Shown: one piece after another, positions 45,214 through 58,200 of the stretch | How positions within the stretch are numbered: position 1 is the stretch's first letter | Layout of the letters: each line of letters starts with the position of its first letter | Source: an uncultured Nitrospira sp. | Lineage (GTDB): Bacteria; Nitrospirota; Nitrospiria; Nitrospirales; Nitrospiraceae | NCBI GenBank assembly: GCA_902500995.1 | Contig: CABVSR010000022.1 | Location: 1 to 60,249 of the forward strand | Length of the DNA: 60,249 bases | Reading direction: 5' to 3' | Notes under the pieces: model-generated | What the model was told of the DNA's origin: nothing | Seen by the model: the letters and a program-made list of their open reading frames with translations, nothing else | Databases searched by the model: none | Position numbers and translations under genes: made by a program

Positions 45214-46734
45214 ATGCATCTGTTCGGCATTGAAACAGAGTACGGCATCACCAGAGAGGATCTTGATGCGGTCGATCCGGTCGAGGAATCGATGGAGTTG
45301 GTGCGCGCCCATCTGACCGGTGCGTTCGAGCGGCGGTGGGATTACCGGGGTGAAGATCCCCATGAGGATGCGCGCGGCTTCCGTGTGTCCGGTCTGCAGC
45401 AGGACAAGGAGGAGGACGACTTCGCCAAGGTCGATGCCCATCGTCCGTACTCCTTCCATGAGATGAAGAGCGATTTGGTTCTCCCGAACGGCGCGCGGTT
45501 TTACAACGACCACACGCATCCGGAATATTCGACTCCGGAATGCCGCAGGCTCAAAGATCTCATCGCGCATGACCGGGCGGGGGAGCGCATCGTGCAACGG
45601 GCGGCCGATCGCCGCAATCAGCGGCTGGGCGGCGCCTATGTGCAACTGTACAAGAATAACACCGACTTCCACGGTCATAGCTACGGCTGCCACGATAACT
45701 ATCTCGTTCCGCGATCGGTGCCCTTTCCGCAGTTGGTACAAGGCCTGTTGCCGTTTTTGGTGAGTCGCCAATTGGTTGCCGGGGCTGGGAAAGTGGGCAT
45801 GGAAGCGCAGGAATCCGGCTTTGTGCCGGGGCCCTTCCAGCTCTCGCAGCGCGCAGATTTTATGGAAGCGGAGCTGGGCGTCGATACGATGCACAACCGG
45901 CCCATCCTCAATACCCGCGACGAGCCGCATGCCGATCGGACGAAATATCGGCGGCTGCATCTGATCGTCGGTGATGCCAACTTCTGCGAATACGCCACCG
46001 CGCTCAAGGTCGGGACCACGAGGCTGGTGTTGGATCTGATACAGCGCGGCATGGCTCCGCACATAGAACTGGATCAGCCGGTGGCCGCCATCAAGCAGCT
46101 GTCGCGCGATCCGGACCTCAAGGCCACGGTGCGGTTAAAGGATGGGCGGATGTGGACCGGCTTGGCCATTCAGGAAGAGTACTGGAAGGAGGCCAGCCGC
46201 GTGTGCGGCGGCAGTGATCCGGATGCAGATTGGGTGCTGCATGAATGGCGGGACACCCTGCAGGCGCTCGGGGGCGATCGCGCGCAGCTTATCGGGAAAT
46301 TGGATTGGGTGACGAAGCACTGGTTATTGGAAACCTTCATGCGCGAGGAGCAGCTCGCGTGGGAAGATCCCTGGCTCGCCAGTCTGGATTTGGAATACCA
46401 TAATCTGAGCCCCGACCGTGGATTGTTTCTCGGCCTGGAAGCCGAAGGGAAGACGTGGCGCATGACGACCGACCGTGACATTGCGCAGGCGCTCGCAGCC
46501 GGTCCAGCGGATACCCGCGGAGGTTTGCGCGGGTTATGTGTCAGGCGGTTTCCCGAACAGATCCAGGGGATGCAGTGGGAGCGGGTGCAGTTTGCCGGCG
46601 GGTTGCGCGCCCGCACGTTGGAGATGGGCGATTTGTTCGATCCGGAGGCGGTGAAGGCCTGTGCCGGGTTGTTCGAAACCGCAGAGTCTCCCGCTGAGGC
46701 CCTGGCGGCGTGGGCCAAACGAAAGGAATCATAA
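45214..46734 (+). CDS. dop: Depupylase/deamidase-type Dop protein
   Basis: A 506-residue member of the carboxylate-amine ligase-like Dop/PafA family. The N-terminal catalytic ETEYG motif and the Asp-containing FYNDHTHPEYSTPE motif are present. Between them is a long acidic insert (about residues 12-70), the Dop loop, which is why I call this one Dop and the gene at 48977 PafA. It should remove the Pup-like tag from substrates. The following tag already ends in Glu, so a deamidase step looks unnecessary. No clear Shine-Dalgarno precedes its ATG. Confidence 0.9.
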   Translation: MHLFGIETEYGITREDLDAVDPVEESMELVRAHLTGAFERRWDYRGEDPHEDARGFRVSGLQQDKEEDDFAKVDAHRPYSFHEMKSDLVLPNGARFYNDHTHPEYSTPECRRLKDLIAHDRAGERIVQRAADRRNQRLGGAYVQLYKNNTDFHGHSYGCHDNYLVPRSVPFPQLVQGLLPFLVSRQLVAGAGKVGMEAQESGFVPGPFQLSQRADFMEAELGVDTMHNRPILNTRDEPHADRTKYRRLHLIVGDANFCEYATALKVGTTRLVLDLIQRGMAPHIELDQPVAAIKQLSRDPDLKATVRLKDGRMWTGLAIQEEYWKEASRVCGGSDPDADWVLHEWRDTLQALGGDRAQLIGKLDWVTKHWLLETFMREEQLAWEDPWLASLDLEYHNLSPDRGLFLGLEAEGKTWRMTTDRDIAQALAAGPADTRGGLRGLCVRRFPEQIQGMQWERVQFAGGLRARTLEMGDLFDPEAVKACAGLFETAESPAEALAAWAKRKES

Positions 46735-48896: not shown

Positions 48897-48976
48897 AAGG
48901 TCTCGGCGCATGGCGGAGTGACAAGAGCCGTGACGTCAGGCGGGACAGGGGCAATCGTGATCGACAGTTGGCTGAT

Positions 48977-50467
48977 ATGCTGAATCGTATTTTCGGGCTG
49001 GAAACCGAATATGGCCTTCTGGTCAACCAGGATCGGCCGGACCATTCGCCCTCCTGGGTGGCTCAGCGCATTCGGGATCACATCTTTCACGTCGCTCGTC
49101 GCGGGGTCCTTGATCTGCATCACCGCGGGCACGATGAGCCACCGGGCAACGGCGGGTTTCTCACCAACGCCGGAAGACTCTACATCGACATGGGGCATCT
49201 GGAATATGCCTCGCCGGAATGTACCACCCTCGCGGATCTCGTGGCATCGGACCGGGCCGGTGACCGGATTATTCAGCAGGCTGTAACCGCGCTGGGCTTG
49301 GAAGAGACCGTCTCGCTCATCAAAAATAATATTGACCACGAAACCGACGCCACCTTCGGCTCGCACGAAAACTATCTCGTCACCCGACAGTTTCCCTTTT
49401 CCCGGCGCGGTCTTGGGCCTCTCGTAACCTTTTTAGTCACCCGCCAGGTCTTTACCGGCGCGGGGCGGATCGGTTGTGCCGGTGATCCCAATGAATGGGT
49501 CCAAATAGGCGGGCTCATCTTGCATCGGCCGGGGCTGCGGGATGCGCAGGATCGATCTATCGTCCCGTTTCAGATCTCGCAGCGGGCCGATTACATCGTG
49601 AACGACTTTTTCGAATGGGTACAGCACAACCGAGCGATCGTCAATACGCGCGATGAGCCGCTGGCCGATCCCAATCAATACCGCCGTATCCACCTCCTTT
49701 GCGGCGATTCGAATATGGCGGAATATGCCACGGCGTTGAAGATGGGCACGACCGGATTGGTCCTGCAACTGATCGAAGCGGGGCAGGCGCCCCGTGGATT
49801 GGGAATCAACGAGCCGGTCGAGGCTTTGCAGGAAATTTCGCGGGATCCGGATCGCCAATGGATCGTCCAACTGGAATCCGGGCAGTCGATCTCCGCCCTG
49901 GACATTCAAGAGCAGTTTCTCGCCGCGGCGCAGCGCCATTGCCAGGGGCAGGACGAAGAGACGGATTGGGTGCTGGAACAATGGGAATCCGTGTTGACCG
50001 ACTTGCGGCAGGGTTATGACAAACTGGTGGGACGAATCGACTGGGCTTCCAAACTCTGGCTCTTGGAGGCCTACCGCGAAGCGGAAGAGCTGGCATGGGA
50101 TGATCCCATGTTGAAGAGTCTCGATCTGGAATATCACAACCTGCATCCAGCGCGTGGACTCTGCTACGGAATTGAGGAGGAAGGGCGAGGGCTTCGCCTG
50201 ACGACGGACAAGAGCGTGCAGCTCGCGGAGGACCATCCGCCGCGAAATACGCGCGCCTTCGGCCGGGGCGAATTGGTCCGGCATTTGTTGAACTCCGTCG
50301 CGAAGGGACCGGGTGCAGACGTCGCCCACAGTTATGGGGATCACGCGTCTTGCGAGTACATCATCAACTGGTCGAATTTTAAGTTGCGGGATGCCGCGCC
50401 GTTTTTTATGGCCGATCCCTTCAAAACCTATGTGCAAGATGTGCGGAGTCATCTGATTGAGAGATAG
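48977..50467 (+). CDS. pafA: Pup ligase PafA
   Basis: A 496-residue ligase of the Dop/PafA family that joins the tag's C-terminal Glu to substrate lysines using ATP. The catalytic FGLETEYG motif and YIDMGHLEYASPE are present, and there is no Dop-loop insert, which distinguishes it from the gene at 45214. ATG 48977 is chosen; TTG 48968 is also in frame. It is the last gene of the proteasome block and is convergent with the gene at 50475. Confidence 0.92.
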   Translation: MLNRIFGLETEYGLLVNQDRPDHSPSWVAQRIRDHIFHVARRGVLDLHHRGHDEPPGNGGFLTNAGRLYIDMGHLEYASPECTTLADLVASDRAGDRIIQQAVTALGLEETVSLIKNNIDHETDATFGSHENYLVTRQFPFSRRGLGPLVTFLVTRQVFTGAGRIGCAGDPNEWVQIGGLILHRPGLRDAQDRSIVPFQISQRADYIVNDFFEWVQHNRAIVNTRDEPLADPNQYRRIHLLCGDSNMAEYATALKMGTTGLVLQLIEAGQAPRGLGINEPVEALQEISRDPDRQWIVQLESGQSISALDIQEQFLAAAQRHCQGQDEETDWVLEQWESVLTDLRQGYDKLVGRIDWASKLWLLEAYREAEELAWDDPMLKSLDLEYHNLHPARGLCYGIEEEGRGLRLTTDKSVQLAEDHPPRNTRAFGRGELVRHLLNSVAKGPGADVAHSYGDHASCEYIINWSNFKLRDAAPFFMADPFKTYVQDVRSHLIER

Positions 50468-51790: not shown

Positions 51791-52450
51791 GATCGGTTCA
51801 GTCAGACTGAGGTCAGGTTCTGTGGGTAACATACCTGTCCGGTTCAAAGCAACCGGCGGCCGGCGCTGCCCGGCGCGGCCAGACCACTATGGATTGAACG
51901 CCGCTGTCATCGGCGCATGCCTGTTTTCCCACACGCTCGCGAAGCAGCGCAGATCAGGCCCGTTGTGAAACGGCGGTCGAACGATGATCATAAGCGCGTG
52001 GCTTCTCGCATACGTATTCTCCATATGTGTGCGCGTCAGGATCATGACGGTCGTCAGCGTTCTGACTTGGGTTGCCAGATCTCTGGCGTTCAGGGGCGCC
52101 CTCACCACGGACAGTCGGCCCTGCAGCTAACAACTAAGTTTTTTCCTGTATGCGTTGGCATTCTTTTTCTTGTGATGAGTTGACAATTATGTCTAATTCC
52201 CTAGAATAAGCTTCGAAGTCAGACAGGTTAGCTCCTCGCTGTGTGCCTACACTGAGGCCGTGCGTGCCGCTTATCCGTCCCCGTTTCGACCATCCCACAT
52301 CCTCCCGTAATTTTGGAATCGTTCGTGCGCTTGCAAGAGTCCAGCCTCGCCCGGAGCTCACTGCATGAGGGGGCGAAGCGGCCACTGGTTATTCACCACG
52401 ATGCCGTGGCAGGACCGCCACCAGGACTCACATTTGCGGGAGGAATAGAT
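51791..52450. other. Divergent intergenic region with a strong promoter
   Basis: A 660-base region between the lipoprotein gene (- strand) and the PilZ fusion (+ strand). No gene is supported. The + strand promoter at 52180 lies in it, and about 235 bases of leader follow that promoter. Confidence 0.55.
52180..52207 (+). promoter_or_regulatory. Strong sigma70-type promoter
   Basis: TTGACA (perfect) at 52180-52185, a 16-base spacer and TAGAAT (5 of 6) at 52202-52207. Transcription would start near 52214, giving a leader of about 237 bases before the ATG at 52451. This is the best promoter match in the window. Confidence 0.7.
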
Positions 52451-55180
52451 ATGTCGTCTCACATCACTGCGCTTCACGTGACTCAGCCGGTACCTGCCCT
52501 CCACGGGCATGAGGATAGCCTGAATGTTCCTGCGGCGGATCGGAAGAAAACGAGCGAGGCCTGGTCGCTTTCGCTCGCGGAACGGCGGGCTTCTCGTCGT
52601 CTCGCTCTTCGCCTGTCCACGCAGCTGTTCTTTCAGGGCCAGACGTGGAAAGGCATCACGAAAAGCATCGGGCTGGGCGGCCTGTCGATGGACTTCGTGT
52701 CCGAGATTCCCGCCATGCTGAATCAGCAGATGCGATTAAGTTTCAGCCCCGAGAAGGGGTCGCTGAACAGCCTCGGAATCGTGTGTGGGATTCGCTCCGG
52801 GGAGGCGATACCTGTGCCTGGCCGGACTGACACTGCCGTGACCTTGGCTATCCAATTCGTGCACCTGAGCGCCGCCGACGAAGCGGTCGTGGCCGCGCTG
52901 CTCAACGAAGGACGTTCTCCGTCGAAACAGATGCGCCTGGCAGCGGCCTTGGTCGTGCAGGAAGGTGAAGAGACCCTCATCGATACCGGTTCGCAACCGA
53001 CCTCCGGTGGGGCGGCGCCCATTTACCTGGTGCGAGGTCCCGAACGACCACGGCAGGAGCGGCGCCGCCAGCAGCGGGTGGTGGTCGGGCTCAGCACGGA
53101 AGTGAGTCTCCGGTCTCGCGGAGGTGGGCGGCAGCTGGCGGCCGCCATGACCACGGACTTGTCCCACAACGGCGCCTGCGTCCATCTGTCGGCTGAGGAA
53201 GACCTGTTGGGTTCAGAACTCGAGTTGCGTTGGTTGCAATCAACCGCGCTGCATGGATCCGCCGCCGCCTCCTTGCCGGCAACACTATGCGCGGTTTCAG
53301 GCGAAGTCGTGTGGACCAGACCGGTGCCAGCGGATGCCCGCCCTGGTTGCGTCTCCCTGGCAGGGCGAACGGTGCTGGCGGGCGTGCGATTTCTTCCGGT
53401 GGCCAAGGAAGCCGAAGACATTATTGAGCATCTGTTGGCACAGAGGCCAGGGCCGAGCGCCGAAGCTCAAGCCGAAGGTCCTGCCGTTATCAGCACCTTT
53501 TCCGAATGTTTCCGGCCCTCCGGTCTCCGGATCGCCCTCTGCCATGACCGCCCCCGCGCCGAACCGGCGGCCGATGCCCCGATTGTCGTGCTCGCGCCCG
53601 GATATGGGGAGAGCAAGCGCGATTATGTTCCGTTGGCCTATTATCTGGCCGGCAATGGGTTCAACGTGGTTCGCTACGATAATGTGAATCATGTGGGCGA
53701 AAGCGACGGCCTGGTGACTCAATTCCGGTTGGAAGATATGGAGACCGATCTCGAAACGGTGCTGCAGCATGTTGCCGATCAATGGCCGGGGCGACCGATC
53801 GGGCTCGTGGCTACGAGTCTGGCCGGCCGCGTGGCACTGAAGGTTGCCGGCAAGGTGCCTCATGTGCGGCTGCTGACGTTGATCAACGGGATCATGGATA
53901 TCCGGCATACGCTGCAGGCCGTGCATCAAGAAGATTTGATCGGAGAGCATTTGGCGGGCGTGCACAAAGGCGTGGTGAATATCCTGGGTCTCACCATCGA
54001 CGCGGACCGCTGGCTGGAGCATGCGGTGCGAGGGGAGTATGCGGACCTGCTGACAACTCAGCGCGACGCCGCGCGTCTGCGCACTCCGGTCGTGCTGTTT
54101 CACGCCGAGCAGGACGCCTGGGTTGATTCGGCCTCCATCGAACGGGTCGCGGAAGCGATCGGTCCGTATGTGCGCCATTCCTTCGTCGTGCCCGGTGCGT
54201 TACATCGCCTGCAGGAGAGCCCGCGGAAAGCCCGCACGGTCTACCGGCAAATTGCCGCCTGTTGCCAGCAGGAGCTATGGCCCGCGCGCCGCCAGGAGCG
54301 GATGATCGAACCGTCCCACCGTGAAATCGGCATGCAGAACCGGATGGAGCGCGAACGGAGGAAGAAGCGGCGGCCGATGGAAAAATCGGATCACGTGGCA
54401 TTCTGGCAAGACTATTTGCAGAACTTTCAGACCATTCCCAATGTGGCCGATTTCTGGCGCCTCATGGATCATCTCTATCGATTGATGGGCCCCTGCCACC
54501 AGGGCGAGCGGATTTTGGATGCCGGGTGCGGTAACGGGAATTTCGGCGTCTTCCTGCAATTGAATCACGCATTCCGGCAGCGCTACGGCAAGCGCGGGGA
54601 TTTTCGCTCCCCGGACTATGTCGGCCTCGACTTCGTGCCGGCGGCCCTGGCGCAAGCCATGACGAATTTTTCGCAAGTCGGCACGACGTTGCAGGGGCAA
54701 TTTTATGAAGGGTTGCGGGCCTATGAACCCATGTCGATGCGCGTCTGCCAGGCCGATCTCGAATGTGCGTTGCCGTTTCCCGATCATTCGTTCGACCGCG
54801 TCGTGTGCAATCTCGTGTTGGGGTATGTGCGGGACCCCCTCTCCACCCTGCGGGAATATCTCCGGGTGTTGACTCCGCAGGGGCGGCTGGTCATTTCCAA
54901 TTTGAAGCCGTATGCGGATCTGTCGGCCATCTATCGCAATTTTGTGGATACCGCGCAGACGAAGGATCAGGTTGAGGAAGGTCGTCGCCTCCTGGACAAT
55001 TCTGGTAGAATCAAGGAACGCGAAGGCGAAGGCACCTTCCATTTCCACTATCAGACTGAATTAGAAAGTCTGCTGCGCGCTGCGGGCGTCTCGCGCCCGA
55101 GAATTTATTCCACGTTCGGAAATCAAGCCCTCATTGCCGTGGCCGAGAAGGGCATGGCGCACATCACGGTGGCAGCATGA
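52451..55180 (+). CDS. PilZ-PilZ-LuxD-like-methyltransferase fusion protein
   Basis: A 909-residue, four-domain protein. Residues about 40-140 are a degenerate PilZ domain. Residues about 200-335 are a second PilZ with an intact c-di-GMP motif (RxxxR at 205-209, DLSHNG at 236-241). Residues about 360-610 are an alpha/beta hydrolase most like LuxD: FNVVRYDNVNHVG, GLVATSLAGR (nucleophile Ser456), Asp555 (EQDAWVD) and His585. Residues about 660-905 are a class I methyltransferase with DAGCGNGNFG (Asp690). GGGAGGA lies just before ATG 52451; an upstream TTG frame at 52313 lacks a ribosome-binding site. The histidine kinase gene follows after 33 bases. This may be a c-di-GMP-regulated enzyme acting on acyl chains; that function is inferred. 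Confidence 0.8.
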   Translation: MSSHITALHVTQPVPALHGHEDSLNVPAADRKKTSEAWSLSLAERRASRRLALRLSTQLFFQGQTWKGITKSIGLGGLSMDFVSEIPAMLNQQMRLSFSPEKGSLNSLGIVCGIRSGEAIPVPGRTDTAVTLAIQFVHLSAADEAVVAALLNEGRSPSKQMRLAAALVVQEGEETLIDTGSQPTSGGAAPIYLVRGPERPRQERRRQQRVVVGLSTEVSLRSRGGGRQLAAAMTTDLSHNGACVHLSAEEDLLGSELELRWLQSTALHGSAAASLPATLCAVSGEVVWTRPVPADARPGCVSLAGRTVLAGVRFLPVAKEAEDIIEHLLAQRPGPSAEAQAEGPAVISTFSECFRPSGLRIALCHDRPRAEPAADAPIVVLAPGYGESKRDYVPLAYYLAGNGFNVVRYDNVNHVGESDGLVTQFRLEDMETDLETVLQHVADQWPGRPIGLVATSLAGRVALKVAGKVPHVRLLTLINGIMDIRHTLQAVHQEDLIGEHLAGVHKGVVNILGLTIDADRWLEHAVRGEYADLLTTQRDAARLRTPVVLFHAEQDAWVDSASIERVAEAIGPYVRHSFVVPGALHRLQESPRKARTVYRQIAACCQQELWPARRQERMIEPSHREIGMQNRMERERRKKRRPMEKSDHVAFWQDYLQNFQTIPNVADFWRLMDHLYRLMGPCHQGERILDAGCGNGNFGVFLQLNHAFRQRYGKRGDFRSPDYVGLDFVPAALAQAMTNFSQVGTTLQGQFYEGLRAYEPMSMRVCQADLECALPFPDHSFDRVVCNLVLGYVRDPLSTLREYLRVLTPQGRLVISNLKPYADLSAIYRNFVDTAQTKDQVEEGRRLLDNSGRIKEREGEGTFHFHYQTELESLLRAAGVSRPRIYSTFGNQALIAVAEKGMAHITVAA

Positions 55181-55213: not shown

Positions 55214-58200
55214 ATGAAAGTGCTCGCATTCAGCGCGTTGGTCAATGCGTTGGCTGCGACAGGGCTCGGAATGTTCGTCTATTTCCGGGATCCTGCCGCG
55301 GCGCGCAACCGGATCTACGGGCTGTATTGTCTGAGCATTGCCTTCTGGAGCATTTTCTACTGCGGGTGGCATCTCGCGGAATCCAAGGACCTCGCGCTGA
55401 GCCTGTTGCGCCTGGTCATGGCCGGTGCGTCGCTCATCCCGATCCTCTATTTTCATCACACGGTTACCTTTCTCGACATTGCGGCTCGCCATGCCCGGGC
55501 GCTGAAGATCGGCTATGGATTAGCCGGACTGTTCCTGCTGGCCGATACGACCCCCTGGTTTGTCGCGGGGGTGCATCCGGCGATGTCGTTTTCCTTCTGG
55601 CCCGTTCCCGGCCCGTTCTTCCACCCGTTTCTCGTGTATTTCCTCTGGTACGTGATCTACGCTACGTCGCTCGTGGGGGTGGCGCTTCGCGATGCCAATG
55701 GGATCCGCCGCCATCAATATGCCTACATGCTGGCCGCCAGTGTGATTGGATACGCGGGCGGGGCGACGAATTTTCCGCTCTGGTACGGCGTCCCGCTCTT
55801 GCCGTACGGCACGGTGCTCATCACGATGTACACCGCCCTGATGGCCTATACCATCGTTCGGTACCGCCTGATGAATATCAGCGTCGTGCTGAACAAGGGA
55901 TTGGGCTATGCCATCGTGCTGGCGATTATCGTGGTGGCGACTTCCATCGGCGCGGTGCTGAGCAATCGGGCGACCGGGCATTCCACCCCTCCGTTGCTGG
56001 CCGGCACCTTGTTTCTGATCTGTGCCTTGTGGGTCCTCAGCAACAATCCCCGCTCATCCTCGAATACTGTCTTCAGCGCCGTTTGCGGGGCCGCATGCCT
56101 GTGGTTGTTCGGCTGCTTCATGCTGTTCTCCGCCGCCAATGAGACGGAAGCCCTGTTCTGGATGCGAGTCATTTATACGGGGATCGTGTTTCTGCCTGCG
56201 TTGACCTATCACTTCGCGCATAGGCTTTCCGCAGGGGCTGCGCAGGACCGGGTGATTCTTTGGAACTATGCCCTCGGCGGGCTGTTCTGGAGTCTCCTCT
56301 TCACGACCTATCTGGTGGACGGACAGTACGTCTATTACTGGGGCCGGTACCCCAAGGCCGGTGTTCTTCACCCATGGCTGGTCGCCTACGTAGTGGCAGG
56401 CGGCGGCCTGACGGTGTATCGGCTGTATCAGGGGTACCGCGACCATCAAACATCCGCGCCTCTTCTATCCGCCCAATTGAAATATACCCTGGTGGCGCTG
56501 TTGCTGGGGTTCCTGTCCTCCCTCGACTTCCTGCAAAACTATGGCGTGGGATTCTATCCGGTCGGCTACTTGCTGGCGGGATTGTCCGTCACGGTCGTCG
56601 CGTATGCGATTGCCCGTTACGAATTGATGGACATCTCGTTCGCGCCGACCAGGCCGAAAGTCATGTTGTCGATCAAGCTCGCGGGGCTGATTCCGGCGTA
56701 CATGATGATTTTGCTCGTCATTCGGATTTTTACCGGAACCTTCCACTACCTCCTGGCGGGGGTGCTGTTCGGGCTCTTCGTGATCGTGTCGAGCGGGTTG
56801 GCCAATCTGCAAAAGGGCGTGGAACGCGCGATCGGGCAGACGCTGTTCCGAGAGCGCTATGATGCCTATGACACGCTGGTGCAATTCTCCAAATCCCTGG
56901 TGGCGATTCTTGAACTGAAATCGCTGACCAAGGAAATCGTGCAAACGTTGGCCCGGGTGATGAACATCAAGACCGCGTCAGTCTATGTCCTCGATAAGGA
57001 GCAGGGAGTCTACAGTTTGACGGCATCATACGGATTTGTGACCAGAGATGTGATTGTGCCTCCCATCAAGATGGAGAGCGAATTTCCGCGGGCGCTCTTG
57101 CGAACTGAAACGGCCCTGGTTCGAGAAGAAATCGAATATGATAAAGCTGATACCGATTACTTGCGACTGCTGGGCACCTTGAAGGCGCTGGAATCGGAAG
57201 TCTGTATCCCCTTGGTCAGCAAGGAGCGCCTAGTCGGCTTCTGCAATTTAGGGCGCCGTGCGAATCACGGTATGTATTCGACGGAAGAATTGGCGTTGCT
57301 GAAAACGCTGGCGCAGCATGCGGCCATCGCGATCGATAACGCGCTCCTGTATGAAGACCTGCGCCGATCCCAGTTGCTGATGCGCCGCACCGACCGGCTG
57401 CGATCACTGGAAACGATGGCCGGAGGATTCGCGCATGAGATTCGCAATCCGCTGACGTCTATCAAGACATTCGTTCAGCTGGCGCCCGACCGGCGAGACG
57501 ATGTCGAATTCATGGAGCAGTTCAGTCAGGTGGTCTGTGAGGATGTCGAGCGAATTGAACGGCTGGTCCACGAAATTCTTGACTATGCGCGGTATATGAC
57601 GCCGAAACTCACGCAGGAGAGCTTGAACGACGTGGTGTCTTCCTGCCTGTATTTTATCGAGGTGAAGGCGAGCAGCAAGGCCATCACCATTCAGAAGGAA
57701 CTCGCGCCGGATTTGCCCTTCGTCAAGCTGGATCGGCAACAGATCAAACAGGTGTTGCTCAACTTATTCATCAACGCGATGGAAGCGATCGGAGGGGAAC
57801 AGGGCGGCCGCTTGTCCGTGCGCACCAGAAAGCTTGTCAAGGCGGTCAATGAGCCGTGGGTTCAGATCGAGGTGGAGGACAGCGGACCCGGGATTGAACC
57901 GCACGACTTGGATCATATATTTGACCCGTTTTACACGACCAAACATGAGAGCGGGGAACGCGAGGGAACCGGGTTAGGGCTGACCATCGCTCATCAAATT
58001 GTTCAGGAACACGGAGGATATGTGGAAGTGGTCAGTGAAGTGGGGCATGGCACGAAGTTCATGGTGAGCCTTCCCGTAAACCCGCCGATGACGGAATGGC
58101 AGGCGACTCAGCCGCTCTACGAAGATAGTCGAAAACTCGCGGGCGCATTTCTCGCGAGGCCCCACCTGAGTTTGGAGGAACAGTTCAGCAAGCCCGATTC

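Follow-up and report, generated by a model that had tools for sequence, protein, structure and literature searches.

The gene studied here encodes a four-domain fusion of two PilZ domains, a LuxD-like hydrolase and a methyltransferase, and it forms a conserved pair with the gene for a 7TM histidine kinase. On balance, we favor the view that it represents the synthase half of a two-gene lipid-signaling module, and that this module belongs to a modular family linked to c-di-GMP. The gene lies in a stretch of 60,249 nucleotides (contig CABVSR010000022.1 of assembly GCA_902500995.1; hereafter the window) from an uncultured Nitrospira sp. Members of this genus are key nitrite oxidizers that grow as flocs and biofilms; to our knowledge, little is known about whether and how they may use lipids to communicate. 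The features of the locus are compiled in Table 1.

Table 1. Features of the fusion gene, its 5' region and the partner kinase gene (coordinates refer to the window).
Feature	Coordinates	Strand	Remarks
sigma70-type promoter-like site, TTGACA - 16 nt - TAGAAT	52180..52207	+	hexamers invariant
Conserved 5' leader, ~240 nt	52215..52450	+	RNAalifold, covariation
PilZ-PilZ-LuxD-like hydrolase-methyltransferase gene	52451..55180	+	909 aa, single uninterrupted ORF
PilZ1 domain	52580..52900 (approximate)	+	RxxxR present, [DN]xSxxG degenerate
PilZ2 domain	53057..53443	+	R205-R209 and D236-G241 intact
LuxD-like alpha/beta hydrolase domain	53552..54352	+	Ser456, Asp555, His585; PF02273; 1tht
Class I SAM-dependent methyltransferase domain	54461..55090	+	PF13847, PF08241, PF13489
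Partner sensor histidine kinase, 1002 aa	55214..58222	+	HisKA_7TM, GAF, HisKA, HATPase_c; adjacency conserved
First 7TM domain (7TM_A)	55214..55948	+	type tracks partner enzyme
Second 7TM domain (7TM_B)	55961..56668	+	PF16927; secondary 7TM-profile match at 55997-56644
GAF, HisKA and HATPase domains	56912..58081	+	Pfam

The fusion gene starts with an ATG at 52451, preceded by a Shine-Dalgarno sequence (GGGAGG), and ends with a stop codon at 55178-55180. Pfam recovered all domains of the four-domain protein that a previous sequence-only reading had proposed: two PilZ stretches (3.2e-17), an Acyl_transf_2/LuxD domain (PF02273; 9.7e-23, its 81.3 bits lying above the curated cut-off of 20.3) and a Methyltransf_31/11 match (9e-16) with the SAM motif DAGCGNGNFG, which that reading had also noted. 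PilZ domains read c-di-GMP; both motifs for this ligand (RxxxR and [DN]xSxxG) are intact in PilZ2 only, at the very residues (205-209 and 236-241) to which they had been assigned, while PilZ1 has kept RxxxR but carries SIGLGG where [DN]xSxxG is expected. The proposed LuxD-like signatures and Ser/Asp/His set hold up as well, since the best solved relative of the hydrolase is LuxD of V. harveyi (1tht; E=4.2e-16, residues 377-628), on which Ser456 aligns with Ser114, Asp555 and His585 align with the LuxD Asp and His, and RYDNVNHVG stands opposite RYDSLHHVG. The NCBIfam LuxD equivalog model assigns the hydrolase 80.5 bits, below its cut-off of 420; judged by sequence against this curated cut-off, the domain is LuxD-like but not LuxD. 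Structure prediction, which had been suggested as a check, went in the same direction: the best Foldseek match of an AlphaFold2 model of the hydrolase domain alone was again 1tht (TM 0.63), which at the low confidence of this model (mean pLDDT 53.6) provides weak support for a LuxD fold. The full-length model (mean pLDDT 41.8) was left out of the evidence.

The fusion does not result from a frameshift or an assembly artefact, as the protein is matched over its full length, with identities of 74-88%, in 12 public Nitrospira loci, including that of Ca. Nitrospira defluvii; in locus L015, the matching stretch is divided between two ORFs. The concern that the domains might belong to separate genes is thereby answered, and so is the question whether the architecture recurs elsewhere: a close relative is present in 16 of 16 sampled genomes of the genus. 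Two of these proteins (G245 and G139) possess a single PilZ domain and do not have the PilZ2 arginine motif, and PilZ2 of several orthologs carries DxT in place of DxS. Our in-depth genome search covered the phylum Nitrospirota (296 genomes), and we found relatives in 69 genomes representing 18 of 135 genera. Outside the phylum, where plasmids were searched for the same architecture, only lone LuxD proteins or lone methyltransferases came to light; in keeping with the sequence-only reading, we found no described system combining these domains in the open-access literature.

The hydrolase-methyltransferase unit forms the core of this family, and its N-terminus is variable (two PilZ domains, one PilZ domain, three PilZ matches, none recognized, or REC-PAS-PilZ-PilZ). 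PilZ2 is weakened or lost in some relatives; it is eroded in those of family f2, and L058 is devoid of any PilZ domain. Since the c-di-GMP motif is eroded or absent in these sister lineages, the core association does not depend on it. Two classes of proteins can be distinguished. The enzyme class, to which the window protein belongs, has kept the catalytic triad and the SAM motif from g1 to f38, f4 and f8, down to identities of about 23-47%, whereas in a class of ~1200-1400 aa the serine is replaced by Asp or Gly, the remaining triad residues are lost, and most members have an eroded SAM motif; going by these residues, the latter are likely pseudoenzymes. The genome under study contains a paralog of this second class (L045, 1518-5735; contig 14 of G000) whose hydrolase and SAM motifs are eroded, and downstream of it lie genes for a GAF kinase, a sigma54 regulator and a REC-HD-GYP protein whose GYP motif is degenerate. 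The order of events envisaged in the sequence-only reading, acyl release followed by methylation, fits the conservation of the triad and the SAM motif across several families, and it is from these residues that we infer activity. In families f4 and f8, homologous acyl-CoA dehydrogenase-type genes are located 5' of the LuxD-methyltransferase gene (L063 10161-11486, L064 4423-5754, L065 10815-12305).

While the domains were read correctly at that time, the partner kinase gene, which starts only 33 nt 3' of the fusion gene, was overlooked. The LuxD-methyltransferase gene is situated immediately 5' of a 7TM kinase gene in g1, g3, g10, f17 and f38 (gaps of -4 to 33 nt) and 157-428 nt 5' of it in genomes of family f2 (L050-L053). 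A single ORF of 1641 aa encodes both enzyme and kinase in G293. In f4 and f8, the partner kinases fall outside the 7TM profile. Genes of the pseudoenzyme class are followed by those for GAF kinases that lack transmembrane segments (L045, L054, L055, L060), and one of them (L061) has no kinase gene downstream. In L046, L048 and L062 as well as in the pseudoenzyme clusters, genes for a sigma54 regulator and a REC-HD-GYP regulator come next; no response regulator of these or other types adjoins the window pair. A search for solved structures related to the 7TM domain found none. Relatives of the window kinase are also encoded on plasmids of Ca. Manganitrophus (L159-L161), next to a sigma54 regulator and with no acyl enzyme 5'. 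Outside the Nitrospirota, a plasmid of Burkholderia pyrrocinia (L162, 4986-6915) carries a gene for a kinase with a 7TM of the second type, convergent to an annotated thioesterase gene.

We gathered relatives of the 7TM kinase via its membrane part and then with a profile of the first 7TM domain, and inspected the gene directly upstream. Acyl-thioester enzymes of various kinds are encoded there: PilZ-KAS III, KAS II and thioester reductase. Other partners encoded at this place, each with or without PilZ, are HMG-CoA reductase, long-chain acyl-ACP reductase-like proteins (PilZ-fused in g2, g4 and g11 as judged by profile or phmmer) and methyltransferase; an aldehyde dehydrogenase and an FAD oxidase-like protein were each found once 5' of a 7TM kinase. 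Counting one lineage per genus and enzyme class, with both genes on the same strand and no more than 50 nt apart (the overlap in g4 depends on the choice of start), an acyl-thioester or methyl-transfer enzyme precedes the 7TM kinase in 24 of 26 lineages, compared to none of 18 controls (Fisher p=2e-10), and in 16 of 18 once loci found through LuxD or KAS III are left aside (p=4e-8); the enzyme classes were assigned after the matches had been seen, so that these p values serve only as a guide. As controls we took 40 kinase loci in five genomes of the same set; an equally close upstream gene is present at 18 of these loci. Seventeen of these genes, at distances of up to 30 nt, were scanned for domains; none encodes such an enzyme, and 11 encode a response-regulator DNA-binding domain. 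The eighteenth, a 101-aa ORF 49 nt away, was left out of the scan. Conversely, 14 of the 18 genomes with an acyl-ACP reductase-like gene have a 7TM kinase gene beside it, and the two occur in the same ten genomes of g2 and g4. More than a dozen 7TM kinases have no close enzyme neighbor (L072-L078, L087, L103-L105, L111, L112, L114 and those on the Manganitrophus plasmids). In f2 genomes, TENA/haem-oxygenase-like genes are located 208-506 nt 5' of 7TM kinase genes (L084 5065-5952, L095 8608-9411).

The main rival to a diffusible lipid signal is protein-based signaling, in which the fusion protein would sense c-di-GMP and a metabolite and contact the kinase directly. The persistence of the paralogs whose Ser/Asp/His and SAM motifs have degenerated, fused to REC/PAS and encoded beside GAF kinases, speaks in its favor, as does the enzyme-kinase fusion in G293, and direct contact between synthase and sensor is known for RpfF and RpfC (PMC13220807). 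However, the class represented in the window has preserved its triad and SAM motif over long distances, and the occurrence of unrelated folds at the same place is better explained by a common kind of product than by a common docking surface. We consider signaling by direct contact unlikely.

Equally improbable in our view is a second alternative: the protein may be an enzyme that acylates or methylates membrane lipids, hopanoids or EPS, with its expression controlled by a PrsK-like kinase that senses the envelope and not a product. Regulation of EPS by c-di-GMP is common and would suit this explanation. The kinase does resemble PrsK, and the regulators of the related clusters resemble AtoC/PrsR; proteins of these types act on exopolysaccharide and PEP-CTERM systems (PMC1569441, PMC9850573). 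Nevertheless, the kinase scores 141.5 bits against the PrsK model TIGR02916, below the cut-off of 300, no EPS or exosortase gene was recognized among the scanned neighbors, and the variety of enzymes sharing one type of sensor would be left unexplained. The membrane-GAF-HisKA kinase and sigma54 regulator organization is indeed that of the PrsK/PrsR proteins of exosortase systems, but the scores lie below the model cut-offs and an enzyme partner takes the place of the sorting genes. Taken as a whole, the arrangement is more suggestive of a signaling system than of an enzyme that modifies lipids on its own.

Similarity among the first 7TM domains tracks the class of the partner enzyme, in contrast to that among the kinase cores. 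For 22 of 27 first 7TM domains, the nearest relative from another genus has the same class of partner enzyme, compared to 9 of 27 for the kinase cores of the same proteins; label shuffles on this comparison ignore relatedness and were not taken as a probability. On the tree of the first 7TM domain, the enzyme class has to change 9 times (minimum 8), and on that of the kinase core 15 times (shuffled mean 17.5). The first 7TM domains of kinases with a KAS III partner group together in a single clade (100/99); such a clade is rejected by the kinase-core data (p-AU 2e-72). G141 has no hydrolase; in its place, the methyltransferase and kinase genes flank a PilZ-KAS III gene, whose product carries the Cys-His-Asn residues of FabH. 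In two other families, too, PilZ-KAS III is found next to a kinase with the same 7TM. The first 7TM domain of the G141 kinase shares 44-45% identity with that of KAS III-partner kinases from other families, compared to 35-38% with that of its own family, to which its second 7TM domain (58%, the best match) and its kinase core (73-76%) are closest; linker and GAF domain resemble own-family kinases as well. These comparisons suggest a joint exchange of the enzyme and the first sensor domain, with the remaining kinase retained. Because the enzyme gene directly adjoins the part of the kinase gene that encodes the first 7TM domain, one recombination may have been enough to transfer the two, and the retention of the exchange fits a functional match without proving it. 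That such linkage of adjacent DNA, mechanically easy as co-transfer would be, accounts by itself for the association of enzyme class and 7TM type is very improbable, given that enzyme identity is non-random relative to the control kinases, that in G141 the breakpoint coincides with the boundary of the two 7TM domains, and that loss of the triad accompanies loss of the 7TM. A similar co-swap involving acyl-ACP reductase in G249 was suggestive, but a clade with the other acyl-ACP reductase partners is not rejected by the kinase-core tree (p 0.33); on the sequence evidence, co-exchange is claimed for the KAS III case alone.

Two well-studied signaling systems resemble the pair described here. In the Phc system of Ralstonia, the SAM-dependent PhcB produces a 3-OH fatty-acid methyl ester that is sensed by the kinase PhcS (PMC11960443, PMC8578825). 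As in Phc, a methyltransferase gene is positioned next to a sensor kinase gene, here with a conserved short gap, but the methyltransferase is fused to PilZ and a LuxD-like hydrolase and the kinase contains HisKA_7TM and GAF domains. Of the Rpf/DSF components, RpfF is a crotonase-type thioesterase/dehydratase that also binds RpfR, and RpfG is an HD-GYP regulator. The Rpf/DSF system comprises RpfF, the kinase RpfC and the regulator RpfG (PMC13220807). With the pair described here it has in common an acyl-thioester enzyme and a membrane kinase, and a REC-HD-GYP protein is part of the cluster in the relatives L046, L048 and L062 and stands beside the own-genome paralog, but, unlike in Rpf/DSF, none is found beside the window pair. 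Furthermore, LuxD-like or other folds take the place of the crotonase, the domain scan gave no enoyl-CoA hydratase match (crotonase-type RpfF), and c-di-GMP would be read by PilZ at the synthase. As far as compared, the pair thus stands outside Phc and Rpf by its protein families and resembles them by arrangement. With LuxD of luminous bacteria (luxCDABE) the hydrolase shares its fold, sequence signatures and Ser/Asp/His triad; unlike LuxD, it is part of a four-domain fusion outside a lux operon, and no lux gene was detected among the scanned neighbors. The order of hydrolase first and methyltransferase second recurs in E. coli YnbC, which we rejected as an ancestor of the fusion on account of a lack of BLASTP similarity; its gene context is different, too. 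The location of such kinases beside many different lipid-making enzymes throughout the phylum points to a so far undescribed family of lipid-signaling systems.

LuxD of V. harveyi releases acyl chains from acyl-ACP, and the 1tht entry is entitled a myristoyl-ACP-specific thioesterase. In the lipid-signaling module that we favor, with acyl-ACP or acyl-CoA as donor, the LuxD-like domain would by analogy take an acyl chain, and the methyltransferase fused to it would methylate the released product, our guess being a fatty-acid methyl ester. This product would be sensed by the first 7TM domain of the adjoining kinase, possibly between cells, and the kinase would then phosphorylate a response regulator; the sigma54 regulator and the REC-HD-GYP protein linked to the paralogous cassette are the likely candidates in this genome. 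Through PilZ2, c-di-GMP may modulate synthesis. More tentatively, and at slightly less than even chances, we envisage modular lipid-autoinducer systems throughout the Nitrospirota that use one 7TM kinase scaffold with exchangeable signal synthases of the acyl-thioester or methyl-transfer kind, many of them gated by PilZ and c-di-GMP; an exchange of the synthase would here include the sensor 7TM. If this is correct, synthases encoded beside their sensors and exchanged with them would offer a supply of matched pairs in which to look for new signals, and c-di-GMP would be linked directly to signal synthesis.

The 5' region of the fusion gene is conserved as well. Both hexamers of the promoter-like site are invariant and its spacer is nearly so across 10 orthologous upstream regions; a search for a sigma54 promoter 5' of the fusion gene yielded no site above shuffles. 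In the leader, RNAalifold predicts that an anti-Shine-Dalgarno sequence (52300-52308) pairs with the Shine-Dalgarno region (52436-52444). Among 11 orthologs, this helix contains 15 doubly changed cells, with a covariation of 0.188 compared to 0.143 in shuffled alignments, and none of 500 shuffles scored as high. An Rfam search of the leader returned no known RNA family. The ~240-nt leader, with its helix that covers the Shine-Dalgarno sequence, is a candidate regulatory leader RNA. Further 5' of the fusion gene lie two genes of the Pup-ligase family (45214-46734 and 48968-50467) that are 45% identical to each other.
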